This document shows positions 3,867-38,434 of a stretch of 46,038 nucleotides of DNA, in pieces. The position numbers and the translations under genes were made by a program. The stretch's first letter is position 1. Each line of letters starts with the position of its first letter. The notes below the pieces were generated by a model that was given only the letters and a program-made list of their open reading frames with translations, did not search any database and was not told the DNA's origin. Source of the stretch: Phycisphaerae bacterium (lineage in GTDB: Bacteria; Planctomycetota; Phycisphaerae; Sedimentisphaerales; Anaerohalosphaeraceae); contig JADHXS010000004.1 in the NCBI GenBank assembly GCA_016782835.1, positions 1 to 46,038 on the forward strand. Reading direction: 5' to 3'.

Positions 3867-3891
3867 CTGGAGTAAGGAAAAGAAATATAAA

Positions 3892-4692
3892 ATGAAACAG
3901 TTAATTAACATCAGTTTAGTTTTAATACTTGGTTTTGTATTTACTGCACCATCCGCCGATGTGTTTGCAGAAGACGGTCAATCTTCAAAAAAGGAAAAAA
4001 AGAAAGTTTTCAGGAAGTATAAGCCTGAAAAGGGTTCCGATGTTGAAAAGGACAAAAAACTGGATGACAAGTGGGAAATTACTGATGATCCGTCATTGCC
4101 CCGGGTTTTGATACTGGGTGATTCGATATCGATAAGCTACACCCTTCCGGTCAGAAAGCTGCTTAAAGGTAAAGCCAATGTTCATCGTGCCTTAAATGAA
4201 AAAGGGATCAAGGAAAATTGCGAGGGGACCACTCATGGGCTTACACGAATTGACTTTTGGCTGGGTGAAAAGAAGTGGGATCTCATCCATTTTAACTGGG
4301 GACTTCATGATCTGAAATACGTGAATGAAAAGGGGCAGAAGGTTGATCCGAGTAAAGGCAAACAGCAGGCCGAACCCGAACAATACCAAAAAAACATGGA
4401 AATACTTGTTGAACGATTGAAGAAGACGGGGGCAACACTCGTATTTGCTACCACGACACCCTATGTGAAAGGTTGTGCCGGGCGCAAGGTGGGAGACGAA
4501 CTCGTCTATAATAAGACCGCCAGAGAAATCATGAAAAAACATGAAGTAACGATAAATGACACATGGGCGGTCATCCACCCGAAATTAGAAGAGTATGCTA
4601 GAGAACGGAATGTCCACCTTAAAAAAGAAGGTACAGAAGCCCTATCGAAACATATCGCCAAAGTTATTGAACAAGAATTGGTTTCGAAATAA
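3892..4692 (+). CDS. SGNH/GDSL-type hydrolase, secreted
   Basis: A ~266-residue SGNH hydrolase, a fold used by carbohydrate acetyl-esterases and lipolytic enzymes. The start is placed at 3892, because an earlier in-frame ATG at 3811 would overlap the upstream sulfatase by 56 bases, whereas 3892 begins a clean signal peptide (MKQLINISLVLILGFVFTAPSADVFA) with AGGAAAAG upstream. A Lys-rich segment follows the leader. Block I is LILGDSIS (Ser in GDS), the oxyanion Asn is in HFNWGLHD, and the catalytic His is in NVHLKKEG near the C-terminus. The usual acidic partner two or three residues before that His is replaced (RNVH), so the enzyme may work with a Ser-His dyad or be altered. Its place between sulfatases and glycosidases suggests removal of acyl groups from the same glycan; that is inference. 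Confidence 0.85.
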   Translation: MKQLINISLVLILGFVFTAPSADVFAEDGQSSKKEKKKVFRKYKPEKGSDVEKDKKLDDKWEITDDPSLPRVLILGDSISISYTLPVRKLLKGKANVHRALNEKGIKENCEGTTHGLTRIDFWLGEKKWDLIHFNWGLHDLKYVNEKGQKVDPSKGKQQAEPEQYQKNMEILVERLKKTGATLVFATTTPYVKGCAGRKVGDELVYNKTAREIMKKHEVTINDTWAVIHPKLEEYARERNVHLKKEGTEALSKHIAKVIEQELVSK

Positions 4693-4783
4693 AGACACAT
4701 TTTCAGATATGGCTGATCAATCGTGATAAACCGGACGAAAACCGTAGTGCATCTTATATCAGAATAACTCGGAAATAAACAGT

Positions 4784-7195: not shown

Positions 7196-7218
7196 ACTAT
7201 TATTACGAAGAGAATGTA

Positions 7219-8769
7219 ATGAATCATAACAAGTTAGAGCCAGTAAGATTATTAGTTGTTGTATGGGTGCTTTTTTGTTTCAGTTTTGTGCAAGCGGCTG
7301 AAAAAAAGAAACAGTTTCCAATCTATGAACCCTCTTGGAAATCATTAAACGAACATGAGACTCCCGAATGGCTTCTGGACGCAAAACTTGGCCTTTATGG
7401 CCACTGGGGCGTCTATTCGATCCCTGCGTTCAAGACCGAGTGGGATGGTCGATTGTTGTCTGATAAGCAGACCCGAGGGGATGCGGTTTTTAATCATCAT
7501 ATTGAAAAGTACGGCAAACAGTCAGAGTTTGGGTATAAGGATTTCATCAAGGATTTTAAGGCGAAAAAGTTCGATCCGGATGAATGGGCTGATATCATCG
7601 TCAAGTCCGGTGCAAAATATGCCGGGATCACCGCCGTCCATCACGATGGATACTGTCTTTGGGACAGTCAATATACCCGCTGGGACTCGATGGATACCGG
7701 ACCGGGACGGGATCTTTATGGCGAGCTTGTTGCAGCCATTAGAAAAGCAGATCCTGACATGAAAATACTAACCTGTCTTCACCACTACCGAACGTACGGT
7801 TGGGTCTATACCAAGGACAAAGAATTACTTGCACAGGGCAAAAAAGAAGGCTGGGATATCTTTGATTCGGAGTACTCGGATTTTTACAGAAATCCGGAAA
7901 CGGAACCTCGTGACAAGTTTCTCCAGGAGTGGAAAAATAAGGTGATTGAAATTGTTGATAATTACGAACCTGATGTATTGTGGTTTGACGGCGGTTCATT
8001 TAACAAAGGTGACAATGTTCCGACAACGCTTGAGGTTCTGACGTATTTTTATAATACACAGAATAAAAAAGGTTCTCTCGTGGAAGTTATCAATAAAAAA
8101 TCAAATTTCGATCCTGACTTTGGGATGCGAAATTTTGAGAAGGGCGGCAACCGCTCTCCCAAGACGGATTTCCCCTGGGCAGATGATTTAAATATTGCAA
8201 ACCGCGCTTGGTGTTATACGCATGATATCAATTATCGAAATCCCAATCAGATTGTTGACGGCTTTGTGGACCGTGTCAGCCGTGGTGGCGGACTGATGCT
8301 GTCGATCTCACCGAAAGCAGAAGGAGTTATTCCTGATGAACAAAAGACCATTCTGCTTGAATTAGGGAATTGGCTCAAAATTAACGGGGAAGGAATTTAC
8401 GGAACCAGGAAATGGAAGATTGAAACCGAAGGCCCGGTTGAAAAATTACTCAAAGACACCGGTGCAAAAACACTGTGGGATTTTAATGACACATGCGATT
8501 CCGGTGATATTCGCTTTACCAAAAAAGGAAACCGTCTTTTTGCTTATGTGTTAGCATGGCCTGAAAACGGAGAGGTGCTGATAAAATCATTACATTCAAA
8601 TGAAAAGATCAGTGCTGCCAACGAGATCATTCGTGTTAAAATGCTGGGCGTTAAGGAACCGCTTAAATGGCATCGAGACAAAAGTGGCCTGAAAGTTATA
8701 TTCCCCAAAGAATCTCCCTGTAAATATGCCTATGGTTTGGAGATTGACGTTAAAGGAGATTTACTTTAA
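7219..8769 (+). CDS. GH29 alpha-L-fucosidase-type glycosidase, secreted
   Basis: A 516-residue GH29 enzyme, expected to release terminal alpha-L-fucose (or a related L-sugar) from glycans by a retaining mechanism. After a Sec signal peptide (LLVVVWVLFCFSFVQA) come AKLGLYGHWGVYS, then the substrate-binding HHDG at 141-144 and VLWFDGG, where Asp257 is the nucleophile. LMLSISPKAEGVIP and a C-terminal beta-sandwich segment (GEGIYGTRKW onward) complete the standard architecture, and the length is normal for the family. It lies 23 bases after the GH43/GH29 fusion, and resembles the second single-domain GH29 gene at 15362. The sequence does not tell which linkage is cut. Confidence 0.93.
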   Translation: MNHNKLEPVRLLVVVWVLFCFSFVQAAEKKKQFPIYEPSWKSLNEHETPEWLLDAKLGLYGHWGVYSIPAFKTEWDGRLLSDKQTRGDAVFNHHIEKYGKQSEFGYKDFIKDFKAKKFDPDEWADIIVKSGAKYAGITAVHHDGYCLWDSQYTRWDSMDTGPGRDLYGELVAAIRKADPDMKILTCLHHYRTYGWVYTKDKELLAQGKKEGWDIFDSEYSDFYRNPETEPRDKFLQEWKNKVIEIVDNYEPDVLWFDGGSFNKGDNVPTTLEVLTYFYNTQNKKGSLVEVINKKSNFDPDFGMRNFEKGGNRSPKTDFPWADDLNIANRAWCYTHDINYRNPNQIVDGFVDRVSRGGGLMLSISPKAEGVIPDEQKTILLELGNWLKINGEGIYGTRKWKIETEGPVEKLLKDTGAKTLWDFNDTCDSGDIRFTKKGNRLFAYVLAWPENGEVLIKSLHSNEKISAANEIIRVKMLGVKEPLKWHRDKSGLKVIFPKESPCKYAYGLEIDVKGDLL

Positions 8770-8806
8770 GAATGATTCTAGTCAATTATATCAAGATCAG
8801 ACAGCA

Positions 8807-10318
8807 ATGAAAAAGAACTGTCGAATATATATGAACCACAGTCCTATAAAAAGCGCGTTCAGAATTAATATTGCAAGAAACATAATTTTGCTACAGGCAG
8901 TGTTTATGATTATGGTCATTCTGACAGGGACTTCCTATTCCGAACATATAAAGCCCAATATCATACTTATATTGGCGGACGACTTAGGTTATTCGGAATT
9001 AGGTTGTTATGAGCAAAACAAAATTAAAACCCCCAACCTTGATTTGCTTGCCTCTGAGGGGATGAAATTGACTGACCATTACAGTGGATCGCCGGTTTGT
9101 GCGCCTTCGCGATGTGTCTTGATGACAGGAAGGCATACTGGCCACAGCTTTGTAAGAGATAACAAAGAACTTCCACGGGAAGGACAAACACCGATTCCAT
9201 CGGACTCATTTACAATTTCAAAAATGCTTAAAGCGAAGGGCTATACGACAGGTTGCGTTGGAAAGTGGGGTTTGGGATCTCCCGGCAGTGAAGGTGACCC
9301 GTTAAATCAGGGTTTTGATTTGTTCTTCGGATATAACTGCCAGCGGCAGGCACATTATTATTATCCGAAATATTTATGGAAGAACAACCAAAAGATCGAG
9401 TTGTCCGGTAATAATGAGCGAACCGGCACAACTTATAGTCCTGATCTAATGAAAAAAGAGGCGTTGAATTTCGTTCGTGAGAATAAGGGCAGGCCGTTTT
9501 TCCTGTACTGGCCAACGCCGGTGCCGCATGTTTCACTACAGGTGCCAGAAGACAGTCTTACTCAATATCGCCACCAATGGAATGAAACGCCTTATAAAGG
9601 GGGACACTATACCAGTCATAAAACACCGAGAGCAGCGTACGCCGCAATGATTACACGAATGGATCGTGATATCGGCGAACTTCTATCCTTGTTGAAAGAA
9701 TTGTCTTTGGAGGAAAATACACTGGTGATCTTTACAAGTGATAATGGAACTACGTTTGCCGGTGGTGTTGATGCGAAATTCTTCAACAGCGTGGGAAAAT
9801 TAAGGGGACTCAAAGGCAAACTTGATGAGGGCGGGATACGTGTTCCTTTTATTGCCCGCTGGACAGGGCATATTGCCCCGGGAACGACGAGCAGCCATGT
9901 GGGCGCTTTCTGGGACATTTTACCCACACTTGCTGATATTGCAGAAGTTCAGTCTCTCCAAGATATTGATGGAATCAGCTTTGCCCCGACGTTGCTTGGA
10001 AAGTCGGGGCAAAAAAAACATGAGTTCCTTTATTGGGAGTTTTCGGGAAAAGGGGGGCAGGTTTCAGTTCGCATGGACAACTGGAAAGGAATTCTAAGAA
10101 ACCTTATTAAGAATCCTGATGCCAAGATTGAACTTTACGATCTTAATAATGATATTGCTGAGAAGAACAACCTTGCGGAACAACATCCAGAGATAGTTCA
10201 GCGTATCAAAAAGATTATGGAGTGTGAGCATGCCCCTTCTAAAGAATTTCCGTTTGTGGCACTTGATTCCTATGAGACAGAGGGACATATAGACAAGAAA
10301 GACGACAGGCAGTCATAA
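8807..10318 (+). CDS. Secreted sulfatase, GKWGLG variant
   Basis: A sulfatase of ~503 residues if it begins at 8807. The frame is open back to 8726 inside the previous gene, but ATG 8807 (or ATG 8831) avoids that overlap and gives a leader whose hydrophobic core is IILLQAVFMIMVILTG. No strong ribosome site is visible for either. Metal-binding DD is at 58-59 and the formylglycine site is CAPSR at 98-102. The block normally reading GKWHLG is GKWGLG here (Lys153, Gly155), with GSPGSEGDPLNQGFDLFFGYNCQRQAHYYYP following. That combination recurs in a recognised group of sulfatases, so it is probably a subfamily trait and not a lesion. FTSDNGT and the IELYDLNNDIAEKNNLAEQHP end block are present. Confidence 0.9.
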   Translation: MKKNCRIYMNHSPIKSAFRINIARNIILLQAVFMIMVILTGTSYSEHIKPNIILILADDLGYSELGCYEQNKIKTPNLDLLASEGMKLTDHYSGSPVCAPSRCVLMTGRHTGHSFVRDNKELPREGQTPIPSDSFTISKMLKAKGYTTGCVGKWGLGSPGSEGDPLNQGFDLFFGYNCQRQAHYYYPKYLWKNNQKIELSGNNERTGTTYSPDLMKKEALNFVRENKGRPFFLYWPTPVPHVSLQVPEDSLTQYRHQWNETPYKGGHYTSHKTPRAAYAAMITRMDRDIGELLSLLKELSLEENTLVIFTSDNGTTFAGGVDAKFFNSVGKLRGLKGKLDEGGIRVPFIARWTGHIAPGTTSSHVGAFWDILPTLADIAEVQSLQDIDGISFAPTLLGKSGQKKHEFLYWEFSGKGGQVSVRMDNWKGILRNLIKNPDAKIELYDLNNDIAEKNNLAEQHPEIVQRIKKIMECEHAPSKEFPFVALDSYETEGHIDKKDDRQS

Positions 10319-10339
10319 TTGTGATTTGGTGGAACTGAA

Positions 10340-12067
10340 ATGAAGAAAAAAATAACTGTTTTTCATGTGAGCTTATTTTGTTTTATTAGTTTGAGTCCTT
10401 TCTTTTCCGGTTGTAAAGTCGGCCCGGATGTTATCCGTCCGGAGTTACGGGCGATGAATAAGAGCATTTCCATTATTCCGGAGCCCTTGAGTTACAGGCA
10501 GTCTGAGGGTTCTTTTATGATCAATTCCCAAACATGCATTATTGTTGACGAAGATCTTAAGGAAATGGCCGAGCGGTTCAATGAAATAATTTCTCCGGCC
10601 TGGGGCGCCCCGTTACCAATAAAAATAAATGGTCAAGCCAAGAATAATATCATCAAGTTTGTTATTGCTTCGGATCTTAATGATTTGAGTGATGAGGGGT
10701 ATCAACTCAAGGTCACAAACGATCGGATTGTCATTACGGCTGCCGCAGAGGCCGGGATCTTTTATGGACTCCAAACTGTCCGTCAGTTGCTTCCTGAGCA
10801 GATCTTTTCTAAACAAAGGGTTTCTGGGGTCCAATGGGAAATTCCCTGTGTGGAGATCGAAGATCGGCCCCGTTTTCAATGGCGGGGTATGCATCTGGAT
10901 GTTGGACGGCATTATATGCCAATGGATTTCATAAAAAAAAATATTGACTTCATTGCGATGCATAAAATGAATGTCTTTCACTGGCATCTCACTGAAGACC
11001 AGGGTTGGCGTATTGAAATTAAGAAATATCCAAAGTTAACTCAGATTGCGGCCTGGCGCGATGAAACGCTTGTCGGTCATGTCAAGGATGCAAAAAAAGG
11101 GAAAGCTAAATACGATGGCAAAAAGCATGGTGGATTCTACACTCAGGATGATATTCGGGAAATTGTCGAATATGCGAAACAACATTATGTAACGGTGGTT
11201 CCCGAGATCGAAATGCCGGGGCATTGCCAGGCGGCTCTTGCCGCATATCCTGAACTTTCCTGTTCAGGAGGTCCTTTTGAAGTCGGAAAGAAGTGGGGAG
11301 TATCTAGAGAAGTTTACTGTGCGGGAAATGAGAAGACATTTGAATTTTTGCAGGATGTACTGCTAGAGGTTCTCGATTTATTCCCGAGTGGATATATACA
11401 TGTCGGGGGCGATGAATGTCCGAAGCACCGATGGCAGGTATGTGAAAAATGCCAGGGGCGGATACAATCAGAATCCCTGAAAGATGAACATGAATTGCAG
11501 AGTTATTTTATAAAACGGATCGAAACCTTTCTCATGGCTCATGGGCGAAACCTGATCGGATGGGACGAAATCCTCGAAGGGGGGCTGGCTCCGAATGCGG
11601 CGGTGATGTCCTGGAGAGGTGAAAAGGGCGGGATAGCCGCTGCGAAAGCTGGTCACCGTGTGGTCATGGCACCGAACACGTACACTTATTTGAATTTTTA
11701 TCAGGCGGATCGGGACACTGAGCCCATCGCCCAGGGAAAATTTCTGCCTTTGGAGAAAGTCTATAACTACGATCCCGTTCCTGTGGTTCTGACAGAGCAA
11801 GAGGCCCGGTATATTTTAGGTGCTCAGGGACAGTTGTGGACTGAATATATTCCAAACCCTAAACATGCCGAATATATGCTGTTTCCAAGAATGTCTGCCC
11901 TGGCGGAAGTCGTGTGGACTCAAAAAGAAAAAAAGGATTATAAGAGATTTTATAATAATCTTGAAGTCCATCTTAAGAGATTAGATTCTTATGAGACTAA
12001 TTATCGAAGGCTGGATTCGATGTCGATTCCTCAGAAAAATTACGGTAACAAACCAAACAACCAATAA
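10340..12067 (+). CDS. GH20 beta-N-acetylhexosaminidase, probable lipoprotein
   Basis: A 575-residue GH20 enzyme that would remove terminal beta-linked GlcNAc or GalNAc using substrate-assisted catalysis. The N-terminus is hydrophobic and ends in FFSGC, a lipobox-like site, so it may be membrane-anchored. Residues ~40-165 form the small alpha/beta GH20b domain (SIIPEPLSYR...AGIFYGLQTVRQLLPEQ). The TIM barrel follows from RFQWRGMHLDVGRHY (~178), with FHWHLTEDQGWRIEIKKYP, the PEIEMPGHCQAALAAYPEL strand and the catalytic pair Asp358-Glu359 in HVGGDECPKHRW. A GAQGQLWTEYI block with the active-site Trp is near the end. Ribosome site GGTGGA. Its position among fucosidases and sulfatases suggests that the substrate contains N-acetylated hexosamine as well as a GH29-cleavable sugar; that last point is inference. 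Confidence 0.93.
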   Translation: MKKKITVFHVSLFCFISLSPFFSGCKVGPDVIRPELRAMNKSISIIPEPLSYRQSEGSFMINSQTCIIVDEDLKEMAERFNEIISPAWGAPLPIKINGQAKNNIIKFVIASDLNDLSDEGYQLKVTNDRIVITAAAEAGIFYGLQTVRQLLPEQIFSKQRVSGVQWEIPCVEIEDRPRFQWRGMHLDVGRHYMPMDFIKKNIDFIAMHKMNVFHWHLTEDQGWRIEIKKYPKLTQIAAWRDETLVGHVKDAKKGKAKYDGKKHGGFYTQDDIREIVEYAKQHYVTVVPEIEMPGHCQAALAAYPELSCSGGPFEVGKKWGVSREVYCAGNEKTFEFLQDVLLEVLDLFPSGYIHVGGDECPKHRWQVCEKCQGRIQSESLKDEHELQSYFIKRIETFLMAHGRNLIGWDEILEGGLAPNAAVMSWRGEKGGIAAAKAGHRVVMAPNTYTYLNFYQADRDTEPIAQGKFLPLEKVYNYDPVPVVLTEQEARYILGAQGQLWTEYIPNPKHAEYMLFPRMSALAEVVWTQKEKKDYKRFYNNLEVHLKRLDSYETNYRRLDSMSIPQKNYGNKPNNQ

Positions 12068-12082
12068 TGTCGGAGTTATAAG

Positions 12083-13732
12083 ATGAAAGATTTTGGAAAA
12101 ATGTCAAGAAGAAATTTTCTCAAGACAACAGTATCTTCAACAGCTGGTTTGTTAACGGGGTCTGTTCTCGGGCAATCTGTTATAAACAAGACTCTTTGTG
12201 GTGGATCTGGCCGAAAGCCAAATGTTATTTTCATGATCACAGACGATCAGGAACTCGATTCATTTGGTTTTATCAATAGAAAAGCTTTAACTCCCAATAT
12301 CGATCGGCTTGCATCTGAGGGAGTCTATTTTTCGCGTGCCTATGCCACTTCCAGTGTCTGTACGCCCAGCCGCTATACCTGTCTGACGGGCCGGTATGCC
12401 TCCCGCAGCAAAGTGGATAAGTTTACGAACGGTATCACAAAAGAGGGGCAAACCTGGGTTCACTGGAATACTGACTTGGCGGTCATCGAAGACAATGTTG
12501 CAAAGGTCTTAAAAGCCAATGGTTATGAAACGGGGATTGTTGGGAAATTACACGGTTTTGAATTGGCTGGACATGATAAATCACTGAACAGGAAATCAGA
12601 TGCTAAGAATTCTGAAGTTATCAGGGCTCTCAAGGCAGACCAGGAAAAATTTGCACGTGGGCTAAAGGAACACGGGTTTGATGATGCCGCTCATTTACAC
12701 CGAGGCAACCTCGGTTCCGGAAAGAGTTTGCCGCAGGAACTTTGCCAGCATGCACCGGAGTGGACGGCCCAGGCCGCTGTCAACTTTATCGAACAGAACA
12801 AAGACAAACCGTTCTATCTGTATTATGCCACGACTCTGCTTCATGGCCCGGATCCTTTGAAATCACTCAAATCCGATCCGCGTATCTCGGAGGAAGGTTA
12901 TCTCCAGAAAGCTCCCGATGTGATGCCTTACAGGCAGTCGGTTCTGGAGCGGTGTAAAAAAGCAGGTGTTCCGGAAGAACTTGCTCCGGCGACATGGCTG
13001 GATGACAGTGTCGGGGCGATTATGAAGAAGCTGGATGAACTTGATCTTACAAAAGACACCCTGGTTATCTACTTTAATGACCACGGCGCGGAGAATGGTA
13101 AGGGGTCATTGTACGAAGGTGGCGTCCGAACTCCGACCATTATACGATATCCTGCAAAGGTAAAGCCGCGTCAGTGCGATGAACTTATAGGCAATATTGA
13201 TTTTGTGCCGACAATCTTCGGTGCGGCAGATGTGATAGCACCCAATGAGATGATGATGGATGGATTGGATCTCATGCCGCTGCTTACAGGCCGAACGAAT
13301 GAAACTCGCGATTCGGTTTACTGCGAGATTGGCTATACGCGTGCAGTCATAACCAAAGACTGGAAATATCTGGCATTTCGAGTTCCACCAAGTCGGCAAG
13401 TTTCTCCTGAAGAAAATCTGGAAGCAATGAAAAAAGCCGCAAAAAAGTCCAAGAAACCAGCTCTCAAGATCAATCCTGAAGGCAGGGTTACGCATATTCA
13501 TCGTACTCCCGGCGGTGATGGGACTGAACTGGGCAATGGCCTTAAACGCTACAAAAAGAATTATTTTGATGCTGATCAGCTTTACAACTTGAAAAATGAT
13601 CCCGGAGAAACTACGAATCTGGTAAATAATCCGGAATATATACAACAGCTTGAAATGATGAAAGCTGAATTAGGCAAACATCTGAAAGCTATTCCAGGGA
13701 CTTTTGCCGAATTCAAAGTGATGCAACAATAA
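12083..13732 (+). CDS. Tat-exported sulfatase
   Basis: A 549-residue sulfatase with a clear Tat-type leader: SRRNFLKTT at 8-16 followed by a small-residue hydrophobic core. Metal-binding DD is at 54-55 and the formylglycine site is CTPSR at 93-97. The next block reads GKLHGFE instead of GKWHLG, so the Lys and His are kept but the Trp is not. NDHGAENGKGSLYEGGVRTPTI is the standard second metal-binding region. A Lys-rich insert (MKKAAKKSKKPALK) lies near residue 450, before the LYNLKNDPGETTNLVNNPEY end block. GGAG lies 11 bases before the start. Gaps on both sides are short (15 and 36 bases), placing it in the operon. Substrate not determinable. Confidence 0.93.
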   Translation: MKDFGKMSRRNFLKTTVSSTAGLLTGSVLGQSVINKTLCGGSGRKPNVIFMITDDQELDSFGFINRKALTPNIDRLASEGVYFSRAYATSSVCTPSRYTCLTGRYASRSKVDKFTNGITKEGQTWVHWNTDLAVIEDNVAKVLKANGYETGIVGKLHGFELAGHDKSLNRKSDAKNSEVIRALKADQEKFARGLKEHGFDDAAHLHRGNLGSGKSLPQELCQHAPEWTAQAAVNFIEQNKDKPFYLYYATTLLHGPDPLKSLKSDPRISEEGYLQKAPDVMPYRQSVLERCKKAGVPEELAPATWLDDSVGAIMKKLDELDLTKDTLVIYFNDHGAENGKGSLYEGGVRTPTIIRYPAKVKPRQCDELIGNIDFVPTIFGAADVIAPNEMMMDGLDLMPLLTGRTNETRDSVYCEIGYTRAVITKDWKYLAFRVPPSRQVSPEENLEAMKKAAKKSKKPALKINPEGRVTHIHRTPGGDGTELGNGLKRYKKNYFDADQLYNLKNDPGETTNLVNNPEYIQQLEMMKAELGKHLKAIPGTFAEFKVMQQ

Positions 13733-13768
13733 TACGAACCTAGTTATTATGTATGGAGGTACTCATTC

Positions 13769-15277
13769 ATGAAGAGACGACTTTTTTTAAAAATGGCGGG
13801 CCTTTGTTCGGCGACGGCTGCTTCCGGTATATGGTCAGGATGTGCAAGGGGAGCAAAAGTTCCAGTGTCTCAGAATCCATTTGCTGCGGATGGTAAAAAA
13901 CGTCCCAATTTTCTGTTTCTTTTCACAGATGACCAGTGTTTTAAAACGGTTAATGCCTTAAATAACCCGGATGTCAAAACCCCTAACATGGATCGACTCG
14001 TAAAGCAGGGTGTTACTTTTACACATTGTTTTAATCAAGGCGCATGGAACGGGGCGGTTTGTATTGCCAGTCGGGCCATGCTGAATACCGGGCGTTATGT
14101 CTGGACATGCGGAGGAAACGAGTGCGGTGATTATCCTCTTTGGGGTCAGGTGATGGGACAGTCAGGTTATGACACATTCTTCACGGGTAAATGGCATAAC
14201 AAGACCAAATCCTTGGAGAGAAGTTTTAAAAGCATAGGTCCAAATGGTGGCGGCATGTTCCCGTCGAAAGATCCCAATGCCGAAGAAAATATGAAAAAGG
14301 GGATACTGAACGACCCATACGACCGTCCTCGGCCTGGTAATTCCTGGAGTCCCTATGATAAGTCACTGGAAGGCCATTGGCGAAAGGAAGATGGAAAGAC
14401 TGTCCACAGCAGTAAACTGTGGGCCGATGCTGCGATTGATTATTTAGATAGCAGCGTCAGCAAAAGTGACGATCCATTTTTTATGTATGTTTCCTTTCAT
14501 GCTCCGCATGATCCCCGGCAGTCACCCAAGGAATATGTGGATATGTACCCACCGGATAAGATCAAAGTACCGCCGAATTTCCTGCCGGAACATCCTTTCG
14601 ATCAGGGCGATCACAAGCTTCGCGATGAACGGTTAGCCCCGTTTCCGAGGACCAAAGAGGCCATTCAGACACATCTTAGCGAGTATTATGCGATTATTAC
14701 TCATGCGGACCATCACATTGGCCGCATTTTGGATGCGCTCGAGAAAAGCGGCGAGGCGGAGAATACCATTGTTATTTTCTCCGCAGACCATGGCTTGGCC
14801 GTCGGTCAACACGGCTTGGTCGGCAAACAAAGTCAATATGATCATTCGATCAGAATGCCGTTTGTGATGTGTGGCCCGGGCCTTCAGGAAAATGTCCAAA
14901 ATGACGCGATGATTTATCTGCAAAGTTGTTTTGCAACGACTTGTGAAATGGCAAATATCAAAGCACCCGATACAGTGCAGTTTCCAAGTCTAGTACCGTT
15001 ATTGACAGGGGAAAAGAAGCAATTGTACGATTCAGTTTACGGCGCCTACCGTGATTATCAACGGATGGTCCGAACAGAACGATATAAATTAATCCGCTAT
15101 CCCCATGTAGGTGAGGTTCAGCTATTCGATCTGAAAAATGATCCATGGGAAATGAAAGATCTGGCTGAAGATAAAAACTATGCGGATAAGATTGCAGAAC
15201 TTGATGAAAAACTCAAGTGGTGGGTGAAGGAAACGGGTGATACGATAGATTTAAATCAATATGAAAAAAGCGGATAG
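13769..15277 (+). CDS. Sulfatase with C-x-A-x-R site, lipoprotein or Tat leader
   Basis: A 502-residue sulfatase. The leader begins MKRRLFLK, a Tat-like start, and ends in WSGC, which could be a lipobox; both signals may apply. Metal-binding DD is at 54-55. The formylglycine site is CIASR at 98-102, one of two C-x-A-x-R sites in this window. GKWHNKT supplies the active-site Lys and His. The middle region (FHAPHDPRQSPKEY and SADHGLAVGQHGLVGKQSQYDHSIRMPF) is typical of the choline-sulfatase/iduronate-2-sulfatase-like branch, judged by pattern only. The end block is LFDLKNDPWEMKDLA. A strong ribosome site, GGAGG, precedes the ATG. Confidence 0.92.
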   Translation: MKRRLFLKMAGLCSATAASGIWSGCARGAKVPVSQNPFAADGKKRPNFLFLFTDDQCFKTVNALNNPDVKTPNMDRLVKQGVTFTHCFNQGAWNGAVCIASRAMLNTGRYVWTCGGNECGDYPLWGQVMGQSGYDTFFTGKWHNKTKSLERSFKSIGPNGGGMFPSKDPNAEENMKKGILNDPYDRPRPGNSWSPYDKSLEGHWRKEDGKTVHSSKLWADAAIDYLDSSVSKSDDPFFMYVSFHAPHDPRQSPKEYVDMYPPDKIKVPPNFLPEHPFDQGDHKLRDERLAPFPRTKEAIQTHLSEYYAIITHADHHIGRILDALEKSGEAENTIVIFSADHGLAVGQHGLVGKQSQYDHSIRMPFVMCGPGLQENVQNDAMIYLQSCFATTCEMANIKAPDTVQFPSLVPLLTGEKKQLYDSVYGAYRDYQRMVRTERYKLIRYPHVGEVQLFDLKNDPWEMKDLAEDKNYADKIAELDEKLKWWVKETGDTIDLNQYEKSG

Positions 15278-15361
15278 CAAATTAGATCGTACTTCGTGTT
15301 CGATGGATCAAGACAAAACTTTTAACGAATAAACGTCAAAATTTAATTAGGAGAAAAAGTT

Positions 15362-16858
15362 GTGAGAAATGTAAGTATATTTTTAGTACTAATCGCATGT
15401 GTATTAATTGGCTGCAGCACAGCAGCAAAATCTCAAGGTAAATTTGAACCGACAATCGATTCCCTTCGCCAGTATGAGTGTCCGGAATGGTTTCGGGATG
15501 CCAAGTTTGGTATTTATTTGCACTGGGGACCGTATTCTGTCGCCGAGCAGGGCGAGTGGTATGCGCGTAAACTCTATTTAGAGGATACGCCGGAATATCA
15601 GCATCATCTTAAAACGTATGGGCATCCCTCAAAACATGGATACGTGGATTTTATTCCCCAGTGGAAGGCTGAGAATTTTGACCCCGATGCTTTGTTGGCA
15701 TTATTCAAGAGATCTGGTGCAAGATACTTTACGCCCTGTGCCGTTCATCATGATAATTTTGATCTCTGGAATTCGAAATACCATGAATGGAATGCTGTTA
15801 AAAAAGGGCCTAAAAAGGATCTGATCGGGATGTGGAAGGAAGCAACGCTCAAGGCCGGATTGCGTTTTGGTGTTACGACACACTTGTCACGCAGTTACAG
15901 TTGGCTGAATGTGGCCAATCAGGCCGATACCGAAGGGTCTCTAAAGGGAGTTCCGTACGACGGTGCCCAGGGAAAAGGCAAGGGGCTCTATCCGCCGAAT
16001 GATGGTCAAAGTACGCATCCTCGCGCTCCGTTCGATGCTCCTAAAAGCTGGCGGGACCATTGGGCCAGACGAGTCAAACAACTGATCGAAGATTATGATC
16101 CGGACCATCTTTATTTTGACTGCGCTGTTCCGTTTAGAGGGCAGGACGGAGGCCGTACCGGCATGGAGGTAATTTCCCATTTTTACAACCATCGTCCGGA
16201 AGGTGTTATGTGTGTCAAGGAACGACCCTGGCAGGGGCTTTATGCCGATGGGATGACCACACTTGATTATGAACGCGGCAAGGCCAGCCATATTCTTGAC
16301 CAGCCGTGGCAGACGGATGATTCCATTGGTTCCTGGGGATATAATGAGAATACACCCTATACGACCTCAGATGCGGTTGTTGATAAGATTATCGACATTG
16401 TCAGTAAGAACGGCAATATGCTTTTGAATATTCCCATACGGGCTGATGGCACGCTTGATGAAACTGCCACAGGGATCCTCGAAGATACCGGCAAGTGGTT
16501 TAATGTTAACGGCGAAGGGATTTACGGCACGCGTCCATGGTATATGTATGGAGAAGGCAAGACGGAAATGCCGCACAAAACGATTGAATCGCCGTTTACA
16601 TACAAAGACATACGCTATACGACAAAAGGTGAATATCTTTATGCTTTTGTCCTTGACTGGCCGGGGAATAAAACGGTTGAAATGCAGTTTCTCGCGCCGG
16701 CCAATGACCGTATCGGCGAAATCAAGTCCGTCGAACTTTTAGGGTATAAGGGGAAAGTGAAATGGGAACATCATCCGGATGGTCTTCGTATTGATTTTCC
16801 GAAAGAAAAACCCTGTGAATTTGCTTACTGCCTTAAAATTCATCTGCCTAAGAAATAG
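15362..16858 (+). CDS. GH29 alpha-L-fucosidase-type glycosidase, lipoprotein, GTG start
   Basis: A 498-residue GH29 enzyme. Translation most likely begins at the GTG, because AGGAG ends nine bases ahead of it and the encoded leader is a textbook lipoprotein signal with Cys18 in the lipobox LIGC. The barrel carries AKFGIYLHWGPYSV, then AVHHDNFDLWNSKY (HHDN where the paralogue at 7219 has HHDG), and HLYFDCAVPF, in which Asp253 is at the nucleophile position. GNMLLNIPIRADGTLDE and GEGIYGTRPWYMYGEG are the standard late blocks. HHDN and FDC differ from the commonest family text, so specificity may be unusual. It is the last gene of the plus-strand run, ending 11 bases before a strong hairpin. Exo-acting cell-surface fucosidase-type role is inferred from the family. 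Confidence 0.92.
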   Translation: MRNVSIFLVLIACVLIGCSTAAKSQGKFEPTIDSLRQYECPEWFRDAKFGIYLHWGPYSVAEQGEWYARKLYLEDTPEYQHHLKTYGHPSKHGYVDFIPQWKAENFDPDALLALFKRSGARYFTPCAVHHDNFDLWNSKYHEWNAVKKGPKKDLIGMWKEATLKAGLRFGVTTHLSRSYSWLNVANQADTEGSLKGVPYDGAQGKGKGLYPPNDGQSTHPRAPFDAPKSWRDHWARRVKQLIEDYDPDHLYFDCAVPFRGQDGGRTGMEVISHFYNHRPEGVMCVKERPWQGLYADGMTTLDYERGKASHILDQPWQTDDSIGSWGYNENTPYTTSDAVVDKIIDIVSKNGNMLLNIPIRADGTLDETATGILEDTGKWFNVNGEGIYGTRPWYMYGEGKTEMPHKTIESPFTYKDIRYTTKGEYLYAFVLDWPGNKTVEMQFLAPANDRIGEIKSVELLGYKGKVKWEHHPDGLRIDFPKEKPCEFAYCLKIHLPKK

Positions 16859-18489: not shown

Positions 18490-20160
18490 TTAGCTGGACT
18501 GAAACAGCTTTGCCAATTCGGGGTAGGCATCATCAGTGTCGCCAATTTCAACTTTCAATTGAAGCAGTTGCTTTTTCAATTCCTTTGTAACTTCGGCATA
18601 TTCCGGCTGTTCATATACGTTGCTCATTTCATAGGGGTCTTTTTCGAGGTCATAAAGCTCAAAGGAAGCAGGGGTTGGTCCGGGGGGTTGTTTTCCCCAT
18701 CCCGAAACTTTATGCAATTGTTTGGCGTCATGTGATTCAGTGCTGTTGGCCCAGATTTCGTTACTTCGAGGATGAAGGGCTCGCCCATAGAAGAAAATCA
18801 GCTTATAGCGTTTTGTTCGGATCCCATAATGGGCTGGTACATCATGATGAGCCCGGTGCATCCAGTATCGATAGTAAGTGGCTTGCTTCCAGTCAGAGGG
18901 GGTATTGCCTTTCAAAATAGATCTGAAAGAGCGACCCTGCATTTCTTCCGGGGCCTGTGCCCCTGCAAAATCCAGGAAGGTCGGTGCAAAATCGACATTA
19001 TTAATGATGTCCTCATTGACTGAATTGGATTTTATCTCTTTAGGATATCTTACTAAAAACGGCATCTTCAAAGATTCTTCAAACATCCATCGCTTATCGA
19101 CATGGTCGTGTTCTCCGAGCAGCATGCCCTGGTCACCGGTATAGATGACAACAGTGTTGTCTGCCAGATTTGCCTGATCCAGATAATCCAGTAGCCGTCC
19201 GACATTGTCATTGACTGCGGCGACACAGCGAAGGTAATCTTTCAGGTATTTTTGATAAGCGGCCCGTGTCATTTCTTTTTCCGACATGCCGTTTACATCA
19301 AGCTTTCCACTGGGCCACCAGTCATTCTGCATGCGGCTGACACGGTTTCTGATTTTGTTTTTATTAGAAAGTGTAGAGCCATAGTCACGAGATCCGATGG
19401 AGCGGTCAGATTTATTTTCAAACAATGTTGGCGGTTCGGGTATGTCGACACCGTCAAAAAGATGCTCATGTCGTTCCGGAAATTCCCAAAGCCCATGTGG
19501 CGCCTTAAAGTGACACATTAAAAAAAAGGGTTTATCATCTTTGGATACTCTCTGTTCAAGCCATTTCAAGGCTTCATCGGTGATGACATCGCTGGAGTAT
19601 CCTGTATGAACAGTACCGCCTTCATTGTGGTCTTTCCAGCGAATACCTTTTTCTTTGAGAAGGGGATTTAAATACAATCCCTGCCCGGGAAGCACATTGT
19701 AGTAGTCAAATCCTTTGGGTTCGGTATGAAGATGCCACTTGCCAATAACGGCTGTTTCATAGCCGGCCTTCTGAAGTTCGACGGCGACATTGGGGTGATG
19801 GTCCGGGTCCCAGTCATCAACGAGGGTATAAACACCGTTTTTATGTGAGTACTGCCCGCTTAGAATGGACGCACGGCTGGGAGTGCAGATTGAGTTAGTG
19901 CAGAAACAGTTTTTAAGCATGATCCCTTCTGTGGCAATTCGATCAATGTTGTCAGTAGGGCATATTTCCTTGAGATAGCTGCCATAGGCGGATATGGCCT
20001 GATAAGTGTGATCATCCGACATAATGAACAATATATTGGGTTGCTGTTTAGTATGGGACGCATAGACTGTTGTCGACGCGGGCAGGCATGAAAGCGAGCT
20101 GGCCGCGATGGCAGTTTTCATAAATTGACGTCGCGTAACTAGGTTCTTATACTTATGCAT
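18490..20160 (-). CDS. Tat-exported sulfatase
   Basis: A 556-residue sulfatase with a Tat-type leader (TRRQFMKTAIAASS at 9-22). Metal-binding DD is at 49-50 and the formylglycine site is CTPSR at 92-96. GKWHLHTEPKGFDYY provides the active-site Lys and His, and TGDQGMLLGEHDHVDKRWMFEESLKMPF is the second metal-binding region. It closely resembles the plus-strand sulfatase at 38584: both share CFCTNSxCxPSRASI, a GQYSHKxGVYTL segment and HYGIRTxxYKLI. The two genes lie in transcription units whose promoters carry the same motif. It is 83 bases downstream of the pseudopilin gene on the same strand. Family is certain, substrate unknown. Confidence 0.94.
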   Translation of the reverse strand: MHKYKNLVTRRQFMKTAIAASSLSCLPASTTVYASHTKQQPNILFIMSDDHTYQAISAYGSYLKEICPTDNIDRIATEGIMLKNCFCTNSICTPSRASILSGQYSHKNGVYTLVDDWDPDHHPNVAVELQKAGYETAVIGKWHLHTEPKGFDYYNVLPGQGLYLNPLLKEKGIRWKDHNEGGTVHTGYSSDVITDEALKWLEQRVSKDDKPFFLMCHFKAPHGLWEFPERHEHLFDGVDIPEPPTLFENKSDRSIGSRDYGSTLSNKNKIRNRVSRMQNDWWPSGKLDVNGMSEKEMTRAAYQKYLKDYLRCVAAVNDNVGRLLDYLDQANLADNTVVIYTGDQGMLLGEHDHVDKRWMFEESLKMPFLVRYPKEIKSNSVNEDIINNVDFAPTFLDFAGAQAPEEMQGRSFRSILKGNTPSDWKQATYYRYWMHRAHHDVPAHYGIRTKRYKLIFFYGRALHPRSNEIWANSTESHDAKQLHKVSGWGKQPPGPTPASFELYDLEKDPYEMSNVYEQPEYAEVTKELKKQLLQLKVEIGDTDDAYPELAKLFQSS

Positions 20161-20243: not shown

Positions 20244-21071
20244 CTATTCATCTTTGATATAACTCATCCAATCCGGCCACTCAATCACGTGGCCGGTATT
20301 AAAATCCTTAAACCACTTCACACGCCATAATTGTTTGATGGTGATCTTATTTGCCGATTGATCAGCAAATACACAATTCAGGTTTCCATTATGGCGCTTA
20401 TCAAGAACGAATCGGTGCATTCTTTTTCCAGAACTGGTGCGTCTGAGCCCCTGTGAGATCAGTTGCTCCTCCGTTTCCAGCGGCGGATCGTCTATGGTGC
20501 CTTTTGTGTAGAAGTTGTGATTGGGCTTGCCGCCTTTCCATGAACAATCCAGAAAGAGAGGTACATTAGAAGAACCGGTCACATTTGTGCTCTTTTCCCA
20601 CAGGCCTGGTTCAGGATCACCTGATGAGGAAGAGGCACTCGCCCAGTTGTTAGTACCATAGCTCCCGTAATCTCCTTTGACTCTTTCAAGGTGCTGTCCA
20701 TCATTTGAGAGTTTGTCATCAATGAATACTCCCCAAGACTCAAATGAACTGCCGACAATGCTTCCTTCAAACAAGGCTATTGTAGGATTCGCGGTTTTTT
20801 TTGCTGAAGGGCATACGCGTAATTTTGGATCCTGGTAGTAACTGCGGTAGATTTCAGACCATAATGCCCCTTTATGCCAGGTTGCAAATCTTTCGTCATT
20901 ATCGCTGTTATAAAGACTTGTGACAAGTCCCCACTGCCGAAGGTTTGAACGGCAGGTAATCTCGCGTGCATATTCTTTGGCTTTGTTTAAGGATGGTAAA
21001 ATCACAGAAAGCAGCAATGCGATGATTGCAATAACAACCAAAAGTTCAATAAGTGTAAACGCTTTCCTCAT
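20244..21071 (-). CDS. Pseudopilin-like protein with prepilin cleavage/methylation signal
   Basis: A 275-residue protein with a type IV prepilin/type II secretion pseudopilin leader: MRKA then FTLIELLVVIAIIALL, with cleavage expected after Ala4 and the conserved Glu at position 5 of the mature form. A SLNKAKEYAREITCRSNLRQWG segment follows, then a globular domain ending in RHNGNLNCVFADQSANKITIKQLW, the planctomycete pseudopilin end block (compare H-x9-DG proteins). AGAGGAA precedes the ATG. Such proteins are abundant in Planctomycetota and often lie next to sulfatase or glycosidase genes; their role is not established. Here it is the first gene of the minus-strand unit, directly under a promoter with the shared motif. 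It could form or cap a secretion or attachment filament; that is speculation. Confidence 0.9.
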   Translation of the reverse strand: MRKAFTLIELLVVIAIIALLLSVILPSLNKAKEYAREITCRSNLRQWGLVTSLYNSDNDERFATWHKGALWSEIYRSYYQDPKLRVCPSAKKTANPTIALFEGSIVGSSFESWGVFIDDKLSNDGQHLERVKGDYGSYGTNNWASASSSSGDPEPGLWEKSTNVTGSSNVPLFLDCSWKGGKPNHNFYTKGTIDDPPLETEEQLISQGLRRTSSGKRMHRFVLDKRHNGNLNCVFADQSANKITIKQLWRVKWFKDFNTGHVIEWPDWMSYIKDE

Positions 21072-21117: not shown

Positions 21118-21187
21118 ATTATCAACTGGATAAGTTAAAAGAACAAGCCACTTTTGTATATATTTTCCGCCAATATGCGCAAATAAA
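21118..21187 (-). promoter_or_regulatory. Promoter and activator-type motif for the pseudopilin-sulfatase unit
   Basis: Read on the minus strand, the motif runs from 21187 to 21161: TTTATT, TGCGCA, TATT, GGCG, GAAAATA. A -10 hexamer GATAAT lies at 21123-21118, starting 58 bases after the start of TGCGCA. A -35-like TTGTTC (21146-21141) sits 17 bases ahead of it. Transcription would start near 21111, about 40 bases before the pseudopilin ATG. The two motif halves (TGCGCATATT and GGCGGAAAAT) form a 10-bp direct repeat, which suggests a protein contacting one face of the helix over two turns. Confidence 0.55.
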
Positions 21188-21265
21188 ATGATCTTTTGTG
21201 TATTTTAAAAACAAGTTAATTGGTACCTTTTTCGAGATAGGTAGTGGGAATATTGCCTGAAATCC

Positions 21266-21336
21266 GTTTTCTGCGCAAAATGGCGAAAAAATAATGCTCA
21301 ATCGGCTTCTTGGAAAGTGTATAAATATGTTATAAT
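21266..21336 (+). promoter_or_regulatory. Promoter and activator-type motif for the beta-helix operon
   Basis: GTTTTC, TGCGCA (21272-21277), AAAT, GGCG, AAAAAAT, followed by a perfect TATAAT at 21331-21336 that begins 59 bases after the start of TGCGCA. The -10 is of extended type (TG three bases ahead). The -35 region is poor: the best match is TTGGAA with only a 15-base spacer, as would fit activator dependence. Transcription would start near 21343. The motif is on the opposite strand to the copy at 21161-21187, so the 333-base divergent gap carries one copy facing each way. Confidence 0.55.
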
Positions 21337-21404
21337 CAGATGCTGTTGGGGCGGTTGGCTGTATGTGCGCTCGAGTTTGTATAATTGTAGATGTGGGTAT
21401 GTGT

Positions 21405-24400
21405 ATGAGATTGTTGTCCATCTTTATGATAATAGTTGTTTTTATGGGGGCCTGCAATTATGGTTGGGCGGATGATTTTTTTATCTCTGTTTCTGGCAAC
21501 GACAACAATCCCGGCACATTTGATCAACCTTGGAAGTCGGTGCAGTATGCGTTTGATCAGATAAACGCCGGCGACACTGTGTATATTCGCGGGGGGCGTT
21601 ATCACGAGGCCGTCGTCGTTAACGGTCTTCAGGGAAATCCAGGAAATCATATTACGATAACTAACTACGAAGATGAAAAAGTTGTTATTGCCGGGACGAT
21701 GCCAATAGCGACGAACTGGTCACAACATGACAGTCATATCTGGAAGACAACCCTTGGCGAAGATATTTGGCAGCTGTTTGTTGATGGGGATATGATGACG
21801 GCGGCTCGCTGGCCGAACATAACGAAGGACTGGGATGAGCCGGATAATTCGAACGGATTTAATCCAACGCCGGCAAGCTACTGGGATAAGGACGGAACGT
21901 GGGCACATATTACCTCCCAGAGCAGTTGGGGGCATGTCTATAATGACGATATTTTCAATAATCTGGCTGGCCTTGGGAAAAGTCTTACCGGAGCCATGAT
22001 GGTTGGCTACCGTCTGTTGGTTAGCGGTAACGATGTCTTTACCGAACAGGTGACAAATCATGTTGCCGGGTCGAGCGATTTTACTCATACGACCGAGAAC
22101 TTTGCGGCAACTGCAGCGCCGAGTCAGCCGGCATCGGATGCCAGGTATTACCTTGAATGTCATCTGGGGCTTCTTGATGCGCCGGGTGAGTGGTTTTATG
22201 ACAAGGATACGGGCGAGCTTTATGTCTGGTTCGAAGACAGCGGGTCGCCTTCGGGCAGATATATAGAGGGCAAGAACAAGCATCATATACTGGAGCTTAC
22301 CAACTGCGAGTGGTTGGACTTCAGGGGGATAGAGCTGTTTGCAGGGGCGTTCGATCTTAGCAGTACTTACGATACGACATTCGAGGGGTGCCGGTTTATG
22401 TATCCCAGTTACGGAAGGCGTATGCTTAAAATTATCAAGACCGGGATCGGTTACGTGATCCACGATGCTGCGGCTGCTTATAACCGAACGGGAGGCAGCA
22501 GAAATCCTGCGAATCTGACGTGGCGTGATTGCGAGTTTGCCAACTTCGAGGGGTGTGGGTTGTATATTCGCACATTCGGCGGTAACCTTGTCGAGAACTG
22601 CTATTTTCATAACGGTCAGATACTACAGGTTGTGTACGGCGCGGCGTCTGATCACAAGGGTGCCGGGACGACGATCAGACGTACCACGTTCCATACGCTT
22701 GGATTGAATAACGCGACGAAGAACGCCAGCAACGGCCTTTTGGAATACAACCACATTTACAACATGCATTTCGATGGGGATTTTTCTGCGTGTCAGACTT
22801 CGACGGCTTCGCAGGAGGGGACGATCCATCGTTATAACTGGATTCACGATTGCAGAGGGCGTAACGGTATTCGGTTTGACGGGGATCCTGCGGGCATTCG
22901 GGCGCAGGTTCATCATGTCGTTTCGATGCATAATATGCGGGGATTTCGTCTGAAGGGCGATCAGCATATGATTTATAATCTGACGGGATTGGGAAACAAT
23001 CCGAAGAGCGATATCAATGTGGCATTCGAGAAGTTTTACGGTTACGATCCGCCGGATTGTATGGAGTATTCGTGCCGTATTATGGGGCGACGTGGAAGCG
23101 ATCCCTATCATGGTAATGAAAACTCTATTGTCAGGAATATTGCCGGAAACGTGATTGATAACTGGCCTTTGGTCGCTTCCGATAATGCAGGTGTTTGGCA
23201 CGGCAATGCCATCGGGCAGCAACTCAAAGACCAACTGCGCGATCCGGAAAACCTTGATTTTCGTCCGAAAGCGGGCAGTGATCTTGTTGATGCTGGTTTC
23301 GAGGTTGCTGGTATAACGGACGGTTACATCGGTTCTGCGCCGGACATCGGAGCGTATGAATACGGTGATATGAATTATTGGATTCCGGGCAGGATATTGG
23401 ACAAAGCGTCGACTCCGATACCGCCGAATGAAGCGGTTGGCGTTAAAAGCGATGCCGATTTGATGTGGCTTGGGGGCAAAGACGCCGTTTCGCACAAGGT
23501 TTATTTCGGCAGCGAATCCGGCAATCTTTCATTGGTAAGCACACAGACCAACAATATGTATACACCATCCCAGTTAATCGAAGATCAGACATACTACTGG
23601 CGGGTCGATACGGTGACTTCAAGCGAAGTGATTGTAGGTGATGAGTGGTCCTTTTCGCTTGCTGCACCACCATTGGTTACGGAGACAGCCTTGTTTTATC
23701 CCGTGGCGGACAGTTATGTTGATGTGAACGAGCCGGACACAAATTATGGTGAGGATGAAGACATCGAATTAAGAACTCCCTCCGGTGGATCACTGAAGCG
23801 AGAGGGGTTTCTTAAATTTGATGTCCAGGTGGCCGGTGAAATCACTGACGCTGTTTTGCGGCTATATTCTGCCAATGTCTTGTCCGGCGGTGTGAATATT
23901 CATCCCGTGACAGATACGGTGTGGGACGAAAAGGCCATCACCTGGGACAATCAGCCGGGGATGGATCCCGCATCGATAGCATTTGCAACCCCGAGCTATG
24001 GCTGGGGTGAGTTTGATGTGTCAAGCTATATTGATGCCGATGGAATGTGGAGTTTGGGCTTGGTTCGAGGCCCCAAGGAATCAAATCGTCGTGCGAAAAG
24101 CAGGGAGAGCCAATGGCCGCCGGAACTGCTGATAAGCTATGTTCCATCAGGGCCACAGAACAATTCTCCCTATTTCCAGTCCGCCTCTTTTTCCGGTCCT
24201 TATGCTGTTATAGACACAGTGTACGATGGAGACATTTCAGGGGAAGCAAGTGATCCGGATGGGGACCCAATGACCTTTGTCAAAATCGCCGGTCCCGGAT
24301 GGCTTATCATTAATTCCGATGGTGCGATGACAGGAACACCGGGTCTTGGTGATGCTGGAACGAACAGTTTTACTGTTCGCGTGTCAGACGACAAGGGGGC

Positions 24401-24617
24401 ATTTGATGAAGGAAGCATGACAATCCAGGTCTATTTGCCGAATGCCCCTGATATCAATGGGGATGGAAAGACAGACCTTATTGATTTTTCACTATTGGCG
24501 AGGGCCTGGTTTGATGCATGTGTCGAATCGAACTGGTGTGAAGGTGCTGATCTGGACCTGAGTGGTAGTGTCGGGATAGAAGATGTTTGTGAGATGGCCG
24601 AAGCATGGCTTGATTAA
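21405..24617 (+). CDS. Giant secreted beta-helix protein (type I) with DNRLRE and dockerin-like domains
   Basis: About 1070 residues. I place the start at 21405 because it gives a standard signal peptide (MRLLSIFMIIVVFMGACNYGWA); ATG 21363 is also in frame but lies only ~20 bases from the predicted transcription start. The mature protein opens with SVSGNDNNPGTFDQPWKSVQ and YIRGGRYHEAV, the start of a right-handed parallel beta-helix that runs to ~665 and includes DIWQLFVDGDMMTAARWPN. Then: a planctomycete Fn3-like domain (~668-758, TYYWRVDTVTS), a DNRLRE/CBM96-like beta-sandwich (~760-905), a cadherin/He_PIG-like domain (~915-1010, EASDPDGDPMTF) and a dockerin-like pair of Ca loops (DINGDGKTDLIDF and ADLDLSGSVGIED) ending in WLD. 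The helix resembles polysaccharide-active families (GH141, PL6 and relatives) in general pattern; exact family and reaction are unknown. Close relative: 34171-38283. Confidence 0.85.
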   Translation: MRLLSIFMIIVVFMGACNYGWADDFFISVSGNDNNPGTFDQPWKSVQYAFDQINAGDTVYIRGGRYHEAVVVNGLQGNPGNHITITNYEDEKVVIAGTMPIATNWSQHDSHIWKTTLGEDIWQLFVDGDMMTAARWPNITKDWDEPDNSNGFNPTPASYWDKDGTWAHITSQSSWGHVYNDDIFNNLAGLGKSLTGAMMVGYRLLVSGNDVFTEQVTNHVAGSSDFTHTTENFAATAAPSQPASDARYYLECHLGLLDAPGEWFYDKDTGELYVWFEDSGSPSGRYIEGKNKHHILELTNCEWLDFRGIELFAGAFDLSSTYDTTFEGCRFMYPSYGRRMLKIIKTGIGYVIHDAAAAYNRTGGSRNPANLTWRDCEFANFEGCGLYIRTFGGNLVENCYFHNGQILQVVYGAASDHKGAGTTIRRTTFHTLGLNNATKNASNGLLEYNHIYNMHFDGDFSACQTSTASQEGTIHRYNWIHDCRGRNGIRFDGDPAGIRAQVHHVVSMHNMRGFRLKGDQHMIYNLTGLGNNPKSDINVAFEKFYGYDPPDCMEYSCRIMGRRGSDPYHGNENSIVRNIAGNVIDNWPLVASDNAGVWHGNAIGQQLKDQLRDPENLDFRPKAGSDLVDAGFEVAGITDGYIGSAPDIGAYEYGDMNYWIPGRILDKASTPIPPNEAVGVKSDADLMWLGGKDAVSHKVYFGSESGNLSLVSTQTNNMYTPSQLIEDQTYYWRVDTVTSSEVIVGDEWSFSLAAPPLVTETALFYPVADSYVDVNEPDTNYGEDEDIELRTPSGGSLKREGFLKFDVQVAGEITDAVLRLYSANVLSGGVNIHPVTDTVWDEKAITWDNQPGMDPASIAFATPSYGWGEFDVSSYIDADGMWSLGLVRGPKESNRRAKSRESQWPPELLISYVPSGPQNNSPYFQSASFSGPYAVIDTVYDGDISGEASDPDGDPMTFVKIAGPGWLIINSDGAMTGTPGLGDAGTNSFTVRVSDDKGAFDEGSMTIQVYLPNAPDINGDGKTDLIDFSLLARAWFDACVESNWCEGADLDLSGSVGIEDVCEMAEAWLD

Positions 24618-38329: not shown

Positions 38330-38371
38330 AAAGCCAACCTTTTGGCTACAAGAAGGGCTTTTCGGTTTTTT
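38330..38371 (+). terminator. Probable terminator of the beta-helix operon
   Basis: AAAGCC (38330-38335) can pair with GGCTTT (38356-38361), and a smaller stem AGCCAA/TTGGCT (38332-38347) competes with it. A run of six T at 38366-38371 follows. The T-run overlaps the first half of the regulatory motif that belongs to the next transcription unit, so the two elements are interlocked. It lies about 50 bases after the last stop codon. Confidence 0.5.
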
Positions 38372-38434
38372 GCGCAAAAAGGCGAATAATATTACGAGGA
38401 TTGGCTTTCACTAAGGCTTTTCTTTTCTGATAAT
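38365..38434 (+). promoter_or_regulatory. Promoter and activator-type motif for the second sulfatase cluster
   Basis: GTTTTT, TGCGCA (38371-38376), AAAA, GGCG, AATAATA, followed by GATAAT at 38429-38434, beginning 58 bases after the start of TGCGCA. The -35 region is weak (TTTCAC at a 17-base spacing). The half sites TGCGCAAAAA and GGCGAATAAT form a 10-bp direct repeat, as in the two copies near 21.2 kb. Transcription would start near 38441. Confidence 0.55.

Follow-up and report, generated by a model that had tools for sequence, protein, structure and literature searches.

The stretch of DNA analysed here (the window, 46,038 nt) is contig C118 of a Phycisphaerae genome, G000, assembled to 2.25 Mb in 137 contigs and 91% complete. 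It is rich in genes for glycan breakdown, some of which lie behind three predicted operators, two of them divergent:

1..16858, plus strand: sulfatases, three GH29 fucosidase-type genes and a GH20 hexosaminidase of the same putative island (Pfam)
18490..20160, minus strand: sulfatase (PF00884/SGSH_C), second gene behind operator 1
20244..21071, minus strand: prepilin-like (N-terminal methylation) protein, first gene behind operator 1 (Pfam PF07963, E=4.5e-6; NCBIfam TIGR02532)
21118..21123, minus strand: -10 GATAAT of operator 1, 58 bp from the T of TGCGCA
21145..21181, minus strand: predicted operator 1, TGCGCATATTGGCGGAAAATATATACAAAAGTGGCTT, whose distal (TGCGCA..GGCG) and proximal (..GTGGCTT) half-sites are offset by 22 bp
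21272..21308, plus strand: predicted operator 2, TGCGCAAAATGGCGAAAAAATAATGCTCAATCGGCTT
21331..21336, plus strand: -10 TATAAT of operator 2, 59 bp from the T of TGCGCA
21363..24617, plus strand: right-handed beta-helix protein, first gene behind operator 2 (Pfam: CBM96 and a weak GH141-domain match)
38371..38407, plus strand: predicted operator 3, TGCGCAAAAAGGCGAATAATATTACGAGGATTGGCTT
38429..38434, plus strand: -10 GATAAT of operator 3, 58 bp from the T of TGCGCA
38485..44732, plus strand: run of sulfatases behind operator 3 (genes at 38485, 40070, 41765 and 43269; Pfam)

The beta-helix gene likely starts near 21405 and is followed by similar genes at 24647, 30910 and 34144 and by a sulfatase at 27888. 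We saw no operator within the window for the genes at 1..16858, whose promoter may lie to the left of the contig start.

An earlier note on this DNA had described a directional TGCGCA-N4-GGCG motif in each of the two divergent promoters, 58 or 59 bases ahead of a good -10. Both sequences and coordinates are right: TGCGCA begins at 21181 (minus strand) and 21272 (plus strand), and the hexamers GATAAT (21123-21118) and TATAAT (21331-21336) lie at exactly these distances. The third copy that it reported does have a spacing of 58 to the GATAAT at 38429 (plus strand), but its position needs correction, as 38365 marks a run of T, with TGCGCA following at 38371. Within the window the short motif by itself is not significant, its count not being above chance: allowing up to one mismatch it is matched 5 times against 2.5 expected, which 13 of 100 shuffles also reached, and one of the matches, at 28775, falls in coding DNA. 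The reality of the motif rests instead on the genome-wide scan and on an extended form of it.

This extended motif, TGCGCA-N4-GGCGA-N17-GGCTT (16 fixed bases), was found by lining up the genome matches of the short one. Its third conserved block, GGCTT, follows GGCGA after exactly 17 bases, which puts it 22 bp past GGCG, where it overlaps the -35 region. The 10-bp direct repeats seen by the earlier note, which had missed GGCTT, are rather two contact blocks of one half-site, and the true period is 22 bp.

Across the whole G000 genome, TGCGCA-N4-GGCG-N-A has ten exact matches, of which contig C50 carries six, C118 three and C68 a single one, within coding DNA. The reversed pattern has none. The extended motif occurs nine times, eight copies being exact and one carrying a single mismatch, where about 0.001 are expected; the reversed-pattern control again gave no match. 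All nine copies lie on two sulfatase-rich contigs, C50 and C118, which hold 5 and 11, respectively, of the 23 sulfatase genes found in the genome, while the next best copies, on other contigs, differ from the motif at two or three positions. A 42-column weight matrix scores these nine sites, which belong to the 16 on which it was trained, at 44.6-57.8, and the next best match in 450 kb at 19.6; weak-site counts for this genome are based on these 450 kb and on the pattern searches. Every one of the nine sites points into a gene on the same strand, and eight lie outside long ORFs, the ninth falling within the 5' end of an over-extended ORF. The scan suggested earlier for scattered matches without upstream preference leaves the regulon unrefuted.

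The genes behind the C50 sites encode a sulfatase, prepilin-like proteins, a PEP-CTERM protein followed by sulfatases, and a beta-helix protein; another C50 site heads a protein without a Pfam match and then beta-helix genes. Between divergent prepilin-like and beta-helix genes on C50 (L011), two head-to-head operators at 16151 (plus strand) and 16156 (minus strand) share their distal half-site and so form a perfect 30-bp palindrome. A similar overlapping pair is found at locus L215 (3427 plus, 3449 minus). The C50 cluster also contains a gene for a sigma-70-type factor (L011, 13252-14652), beside a gene for a carboxypeptidase-regulatory-domain protein.

Further convincing sites were found in two of 148 relatives, three in Planctomycetota CSMAG_1709 (G012) and four in Phycisphaerae MAG24 (G047). 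Together with the nine of G000 this gives 16 sites from three genomes, three genera and two families. When they are aligned, GGCGAAA and GGCTT are near-invariant at fixed spacing, and two direct half-sites stand 22 bp apart at all 16, whereas the sequence between and around the conserved blocks is unrelated among sites. The alignment and the matrix analysis show the proximal half-site overlapping the -35 region and then a sigma-70-type -10. Every one of the 16 sites has a -10-like hexamer that begins 57-60 bp from the first T of TGCGCA. When the stretch from +40 to +74 is searched for its best -10, 13 sites place it at +56 to +61, where 2.8 would be expected; none of 2000 shuffles reached this. 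The -35 regions look weak, as had been noticed, because the second half-site occupies them.

The genes downstream of the sites in both relatives are of the same kinds as in the window, and many are homologous to them. The sulfatase at 18490..20160 is 56% identical to the one behind an operator of MAG24 (L081:15495), the beta-helix protein at 21363..24617 is 66% identical to a MAG24 protein, and the genes at 1..16858 reach 82% amino-acid identity to a MAG24 cluster. The earlier suggestion of an activator-controlled glycan regulon is well supported, as the nine sites are of upstream type and restricted to the putative regulon, and as they are kept before homologous genes in two other genomes.

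In both relatives a gene for a XylR-type regulator adjoins such a site. In CSMAG_1709 it lies beside the site (L079, gene 3934-5079 on the minus strand, site at 5258 on the plus strand), and in MAG24 a 3-kb contig (L083) carries a site, a prepilin-like gene and the regulator gene. The two products, each of 381 residues, are of XylR type from end to end and contain a Peripla_BP_3 and an HTH_18 domain, that is, a LacI-like sensor joined to an AraC-type DNA-binding domain. The best solved match of the motif-adjacent protein P0001 is E. coli XylR (4fe4/4fe7, E=5e-53, residues 5-375). The two regulators are 64% identical and form a clade of their own (support 100/100), whose only members among 161 genomes of the order are these two; the next best full-length proteins there are at most 55% identical to P0001. 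Among 397 genomes sampled from the class, only MAG24 has a member. The clade is thus carried by few genomes, in data that are largely metagenome assemblies.

The earlier note had placed the regulator outside the window, and indeed the whole G000 assembly, at 91% completeness and in 137 contigs, has no match to P0001 at 1e-60 and no XylR-type gene. Its only Peripla_BP_3 protein is of LacI type, on C42, and its six HTH_18 matches are of other kinds than XylR. The gene clusters that carry the sites run to contig ends. Because the gene is missing from this incomplete assembly, we infer the identity of the regulator in G000. We rejected the AraC-type genes that the assembly does contain as its source, none being of XylR type or on a site-bearing contig.

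XylR paralogs are abundant in the order, and the half-site CGCAAAATGG could be followed around them. Pairs of half-sites, with up to 2 mismatches allowed, peak sharply in 28 other XylR paralog loci, with 13 pairs at 21 bp and one at each other listed spacing, compared with at most 2 at any spacing in shuffles. As the half-site consensus had been partly derived from matrix hits in these 28 loci, 60 further loci were fetched; in these, 20 pairs stand at 21 bp and a single one at every other spacing listed, with no more than 2 in shuffles, so that the 21-bp peak extends over 88 XylR loci. No spacing peak was seen in 294 kb of non-XylR G000 DNA. The sites of the window type represent a variant whose period is 22 bp, as against the 21 bp of most paralogs, and whose proximal half-site is degenerate.

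We propose that the sites are, very probably, class II operators of a XylR-type activator that would control a glycan regulon. Such an activator would join a LacI-like domain that senses sugar to a DNA-binding domain of the AraC family, each subunit of a dimer reading one of two half-sites CGCAAAATGG(C/T) that have the same orientation and lie 22 bp apart. The promoter-distal half-site TGCGCAAAATGGCGAAA is the strong one, and the promoter-proximal half-site, ..AATGGCTT, is a degenerate one covering the -35 region. An arrangement in which tandem half-sites, the proximal one over -35, precede a good -10 is consistent with an AraC-type dimer activating in class II fashion: from there the activator, once on the DNA, would touch sigma-70 RNA polymerase and make up for the lack of a -35. 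Activation would be triggered by a glycan breakdown product held in the sensor. Binding, activation, the ligand and an orthologous regulator in G000 are all predicted from sequence, as is the exact glycan. The AraC-type protein proposed earlier for tandem sites is well matched by the regulator genes adjoining sites in the two relatives. The LacI-type protein proposed as an alternative, on the core TTTTGCGCAAAA, is not borne out as a DNA-binding mode, the left arm being poorly conserved, but is echoed in the LacI-like sensor. Both guesses were partly right because the candidate regulator combines the two domains.

The geometry is that of a familiar switch. AraC activates araBAD in class II fashion from araI1-araI2, a tandem pair of half-sites spaced by about 21 bp, of which the proximal covers -35. 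The predicted operators share the tandem direct half-sites and the position over -35; they differ in that the sensor would be LacI-like rather than the AraC arm/cupin domain, and there is no evidence here for a DNA-looping partner site. Closer still is XylRA of Vibrio sp. EA2, which activates a polysaccharide locus from two direct repeats that it binds upstream of the genes, as tested by gel shifts, xylose binding and deletion (PMC12125979). This parallel means that a protein of XylR type can run a polysaccharide locus through direct repeats. XylRA and E. coli XylR, the activator of the xylose operon, are the same full-length two-domain protein as the regulators of CSMAG_1709 and MAG24, and share with them an operator of two direct repeats and activation, the latter predicted here from sequence; with XylRA there is the further likeness that several promoters of a polysaccharide locus answer to a single regulator. 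The half-site here is CGCAAAATGG, whereas the XylRA repeats are described as AT-rich (PMC12125979). The targets are sulfatases, fucosidases, beta-helix/CBM96 and prepilin-like proteins rather than xylose or xylan genes, and the period in this clade, in the phylum Planctomycetota, is 22 bp.

Could a different protein read the sites? TGCGCA is itself palindromic, positions -1 and -2 are mostly T, the C50 pair at 16151/16156 is a perfect 30-bp palindrome, and one LacI-type gene exists (C42), so a LacI-type repressor on the palindromic core TTTTGCGCAAAA, with the remaining conservation being promoter sequence, might be imagined. We regard it as highly improbable. In 13 of 16 sites the left arm matches the palindrome at only 1-5 of 9 bases, and the 16 sites together do not form an inverted repeat with both arms conserved; because of this poorly conserved left arm, LacI-like binding is unsupported. 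The right-hand GGCGAAA and GGCTT, in contrast, are near-invariant at fixed spacing, the core sits over 50 bp ahead of the -10, which is unusual for a repressor, and the C50 palindrome resolves into two head-to-head operators with a common distal half-site. Tandem direct repeats, and not a LacI palindrome, best describe the predicted operators. It is also unlikely, to a marked degree, that another, non-XylR protein of the AraC family in G000 reads them. Intact AraC-type candidates are encoded on C7, C90, C81 and C108, and the site geometry suits the family generally, but none of them lies on C50 or C118, and the three found by BLAST are only about 22-25% identical to the motif-adjacent XylR proteins.

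That the copies are a dispersed repeat or the end of a mobile element, with no regulator involved, is scarcely credible. Several near-identical copies are confined to two clusters that look horizontally acquired, as a repeat might be; yet conservation is limited to the half-site blocks and the fixed -10 offset within unrelated surrounding DNA, all nine G000 copies point into same-strand genes with eight outside long ORFs, and the same architecture recurs around diverged XylR paralogs.

If a XylR-type activator does bind these operators, its regulon would serve a sulfated, fucose-containing glycan through sulfatases, GH29 enzymes, beta-helix/CBM96 and prepilin-like proteins; the GH29, GH20 and weak GH141-type matches in the window suggest such a substrate. 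The operator-led units and clusters, with their sulfatase, GH29, GH20, beta-helix and prepilin-like genes, are not a XylR system in the strict sense of xylose use. The same kinds of enzymes (GH29, GH141-type proteins and sulfatases) were surveyed for fucoidan and sulfated-fucan utilisation in Planctomycetota; that survey mentions neither XylR nor AraC (PMC11131199), whereas an operator and a candidate regulator are assigned here. In the open-access literature searched we found no prior description of XylR-type control of such genes, pilin-like ones included; the switch would work like known XylR switches, and its use here appears undescribed in that literature.

The distribution of the sites is patchy. 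Of the 397 class genomes in the sample, G000 and MAG24 alone carry the exact consensus. Nine genus siblings of G000 have no such sites, one of them (G008) having two unlike one-mismatch matches. A motif scan of 84,980 species returned 29 stretches, with multiple matches only in MAG24 (four) and CSMAG_1709 (two); the other 23, single matches in unrelated taxa, were taken as chance without individual inspection. Viral contigs held no exact copy. A match in genome G127 (TGCGCGAATTGGCGA..GGCTT, L084) was left out, as it lacks regulon-type surroundings. Although G000 and MAG24 belong to different families of the order, their cluster genes reach 82% amino-acid and 75% DNA identity, many window genes being 60-82% identical to this other family's genome. 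The tetranucleotide patterns of C50 and C118 correlate with the rest of G000 at r 0.58-0.61, while other contigs of about 8 kb or more mostly reach 0.72-0.87; C131 (L090) deviates as well. The cross-family identity, the odd tetranucleotide pattern and the absence of sites from siblings together suggest that the C50 and C118 clusters are a horizontally moving island. Alternatively, the two contigs may have been misbinned into G000.

Prepilin-like genes recur behind these operators. The background density of pilin-like genes, counted over about 36.5 Mb from ten genomes of the order, is about 14 per Mb (504 matches). In the 60 fresh loci (L175-L234), at distances of up to about 2.5 kb from XylR and over about 278 kb of flank, we found 21 pilin-like reading frames where about 4 are expected, an enrichment of roughly five-fold; the two counts come from different detectors (pattern versus HMM), which agree on the G000 background of 5 in 350 kb. 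In nine of these loci by script, and in a tenth by eye (L178), the operator faces the pilin-like gene directly. Of five prepilin-like proteins examined, four lack the H-X9-DG motif of the pilin C-terminus. We tentatively suggest, as a possibility, that the order holds a large set of XylR paralogs, each with its own tandem CGCAAAATGG-type operator, and that the glycan-use systems so controlled regularly include prepilin-like proteins, induced by sugar. If true, the prepilin-like product, for example a surface fibre or a piece of a secretion system, would be made only with the glycan present. Two CGCAAAATGG half-sites 21-22 bp apart over -35, taken with the regulator family, would form a candidate operator code for Planctomycetota glycan clusters in which the genome survey names no regulator (PMC11131199), and regulons would then be predictable from sequence. 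The prepilin-like proteins, abundant in these genomes, would be tied to sugar-controlled expression, which makes their function testable.

G000 may have a second XylR-type regulon. On C121 (L169), a 21-bp tandem XylR-type operator at 14537-14573, followed by a TATAAT, precedes a prepilin-like gene that starts at 14702 and is cut by the contig end.
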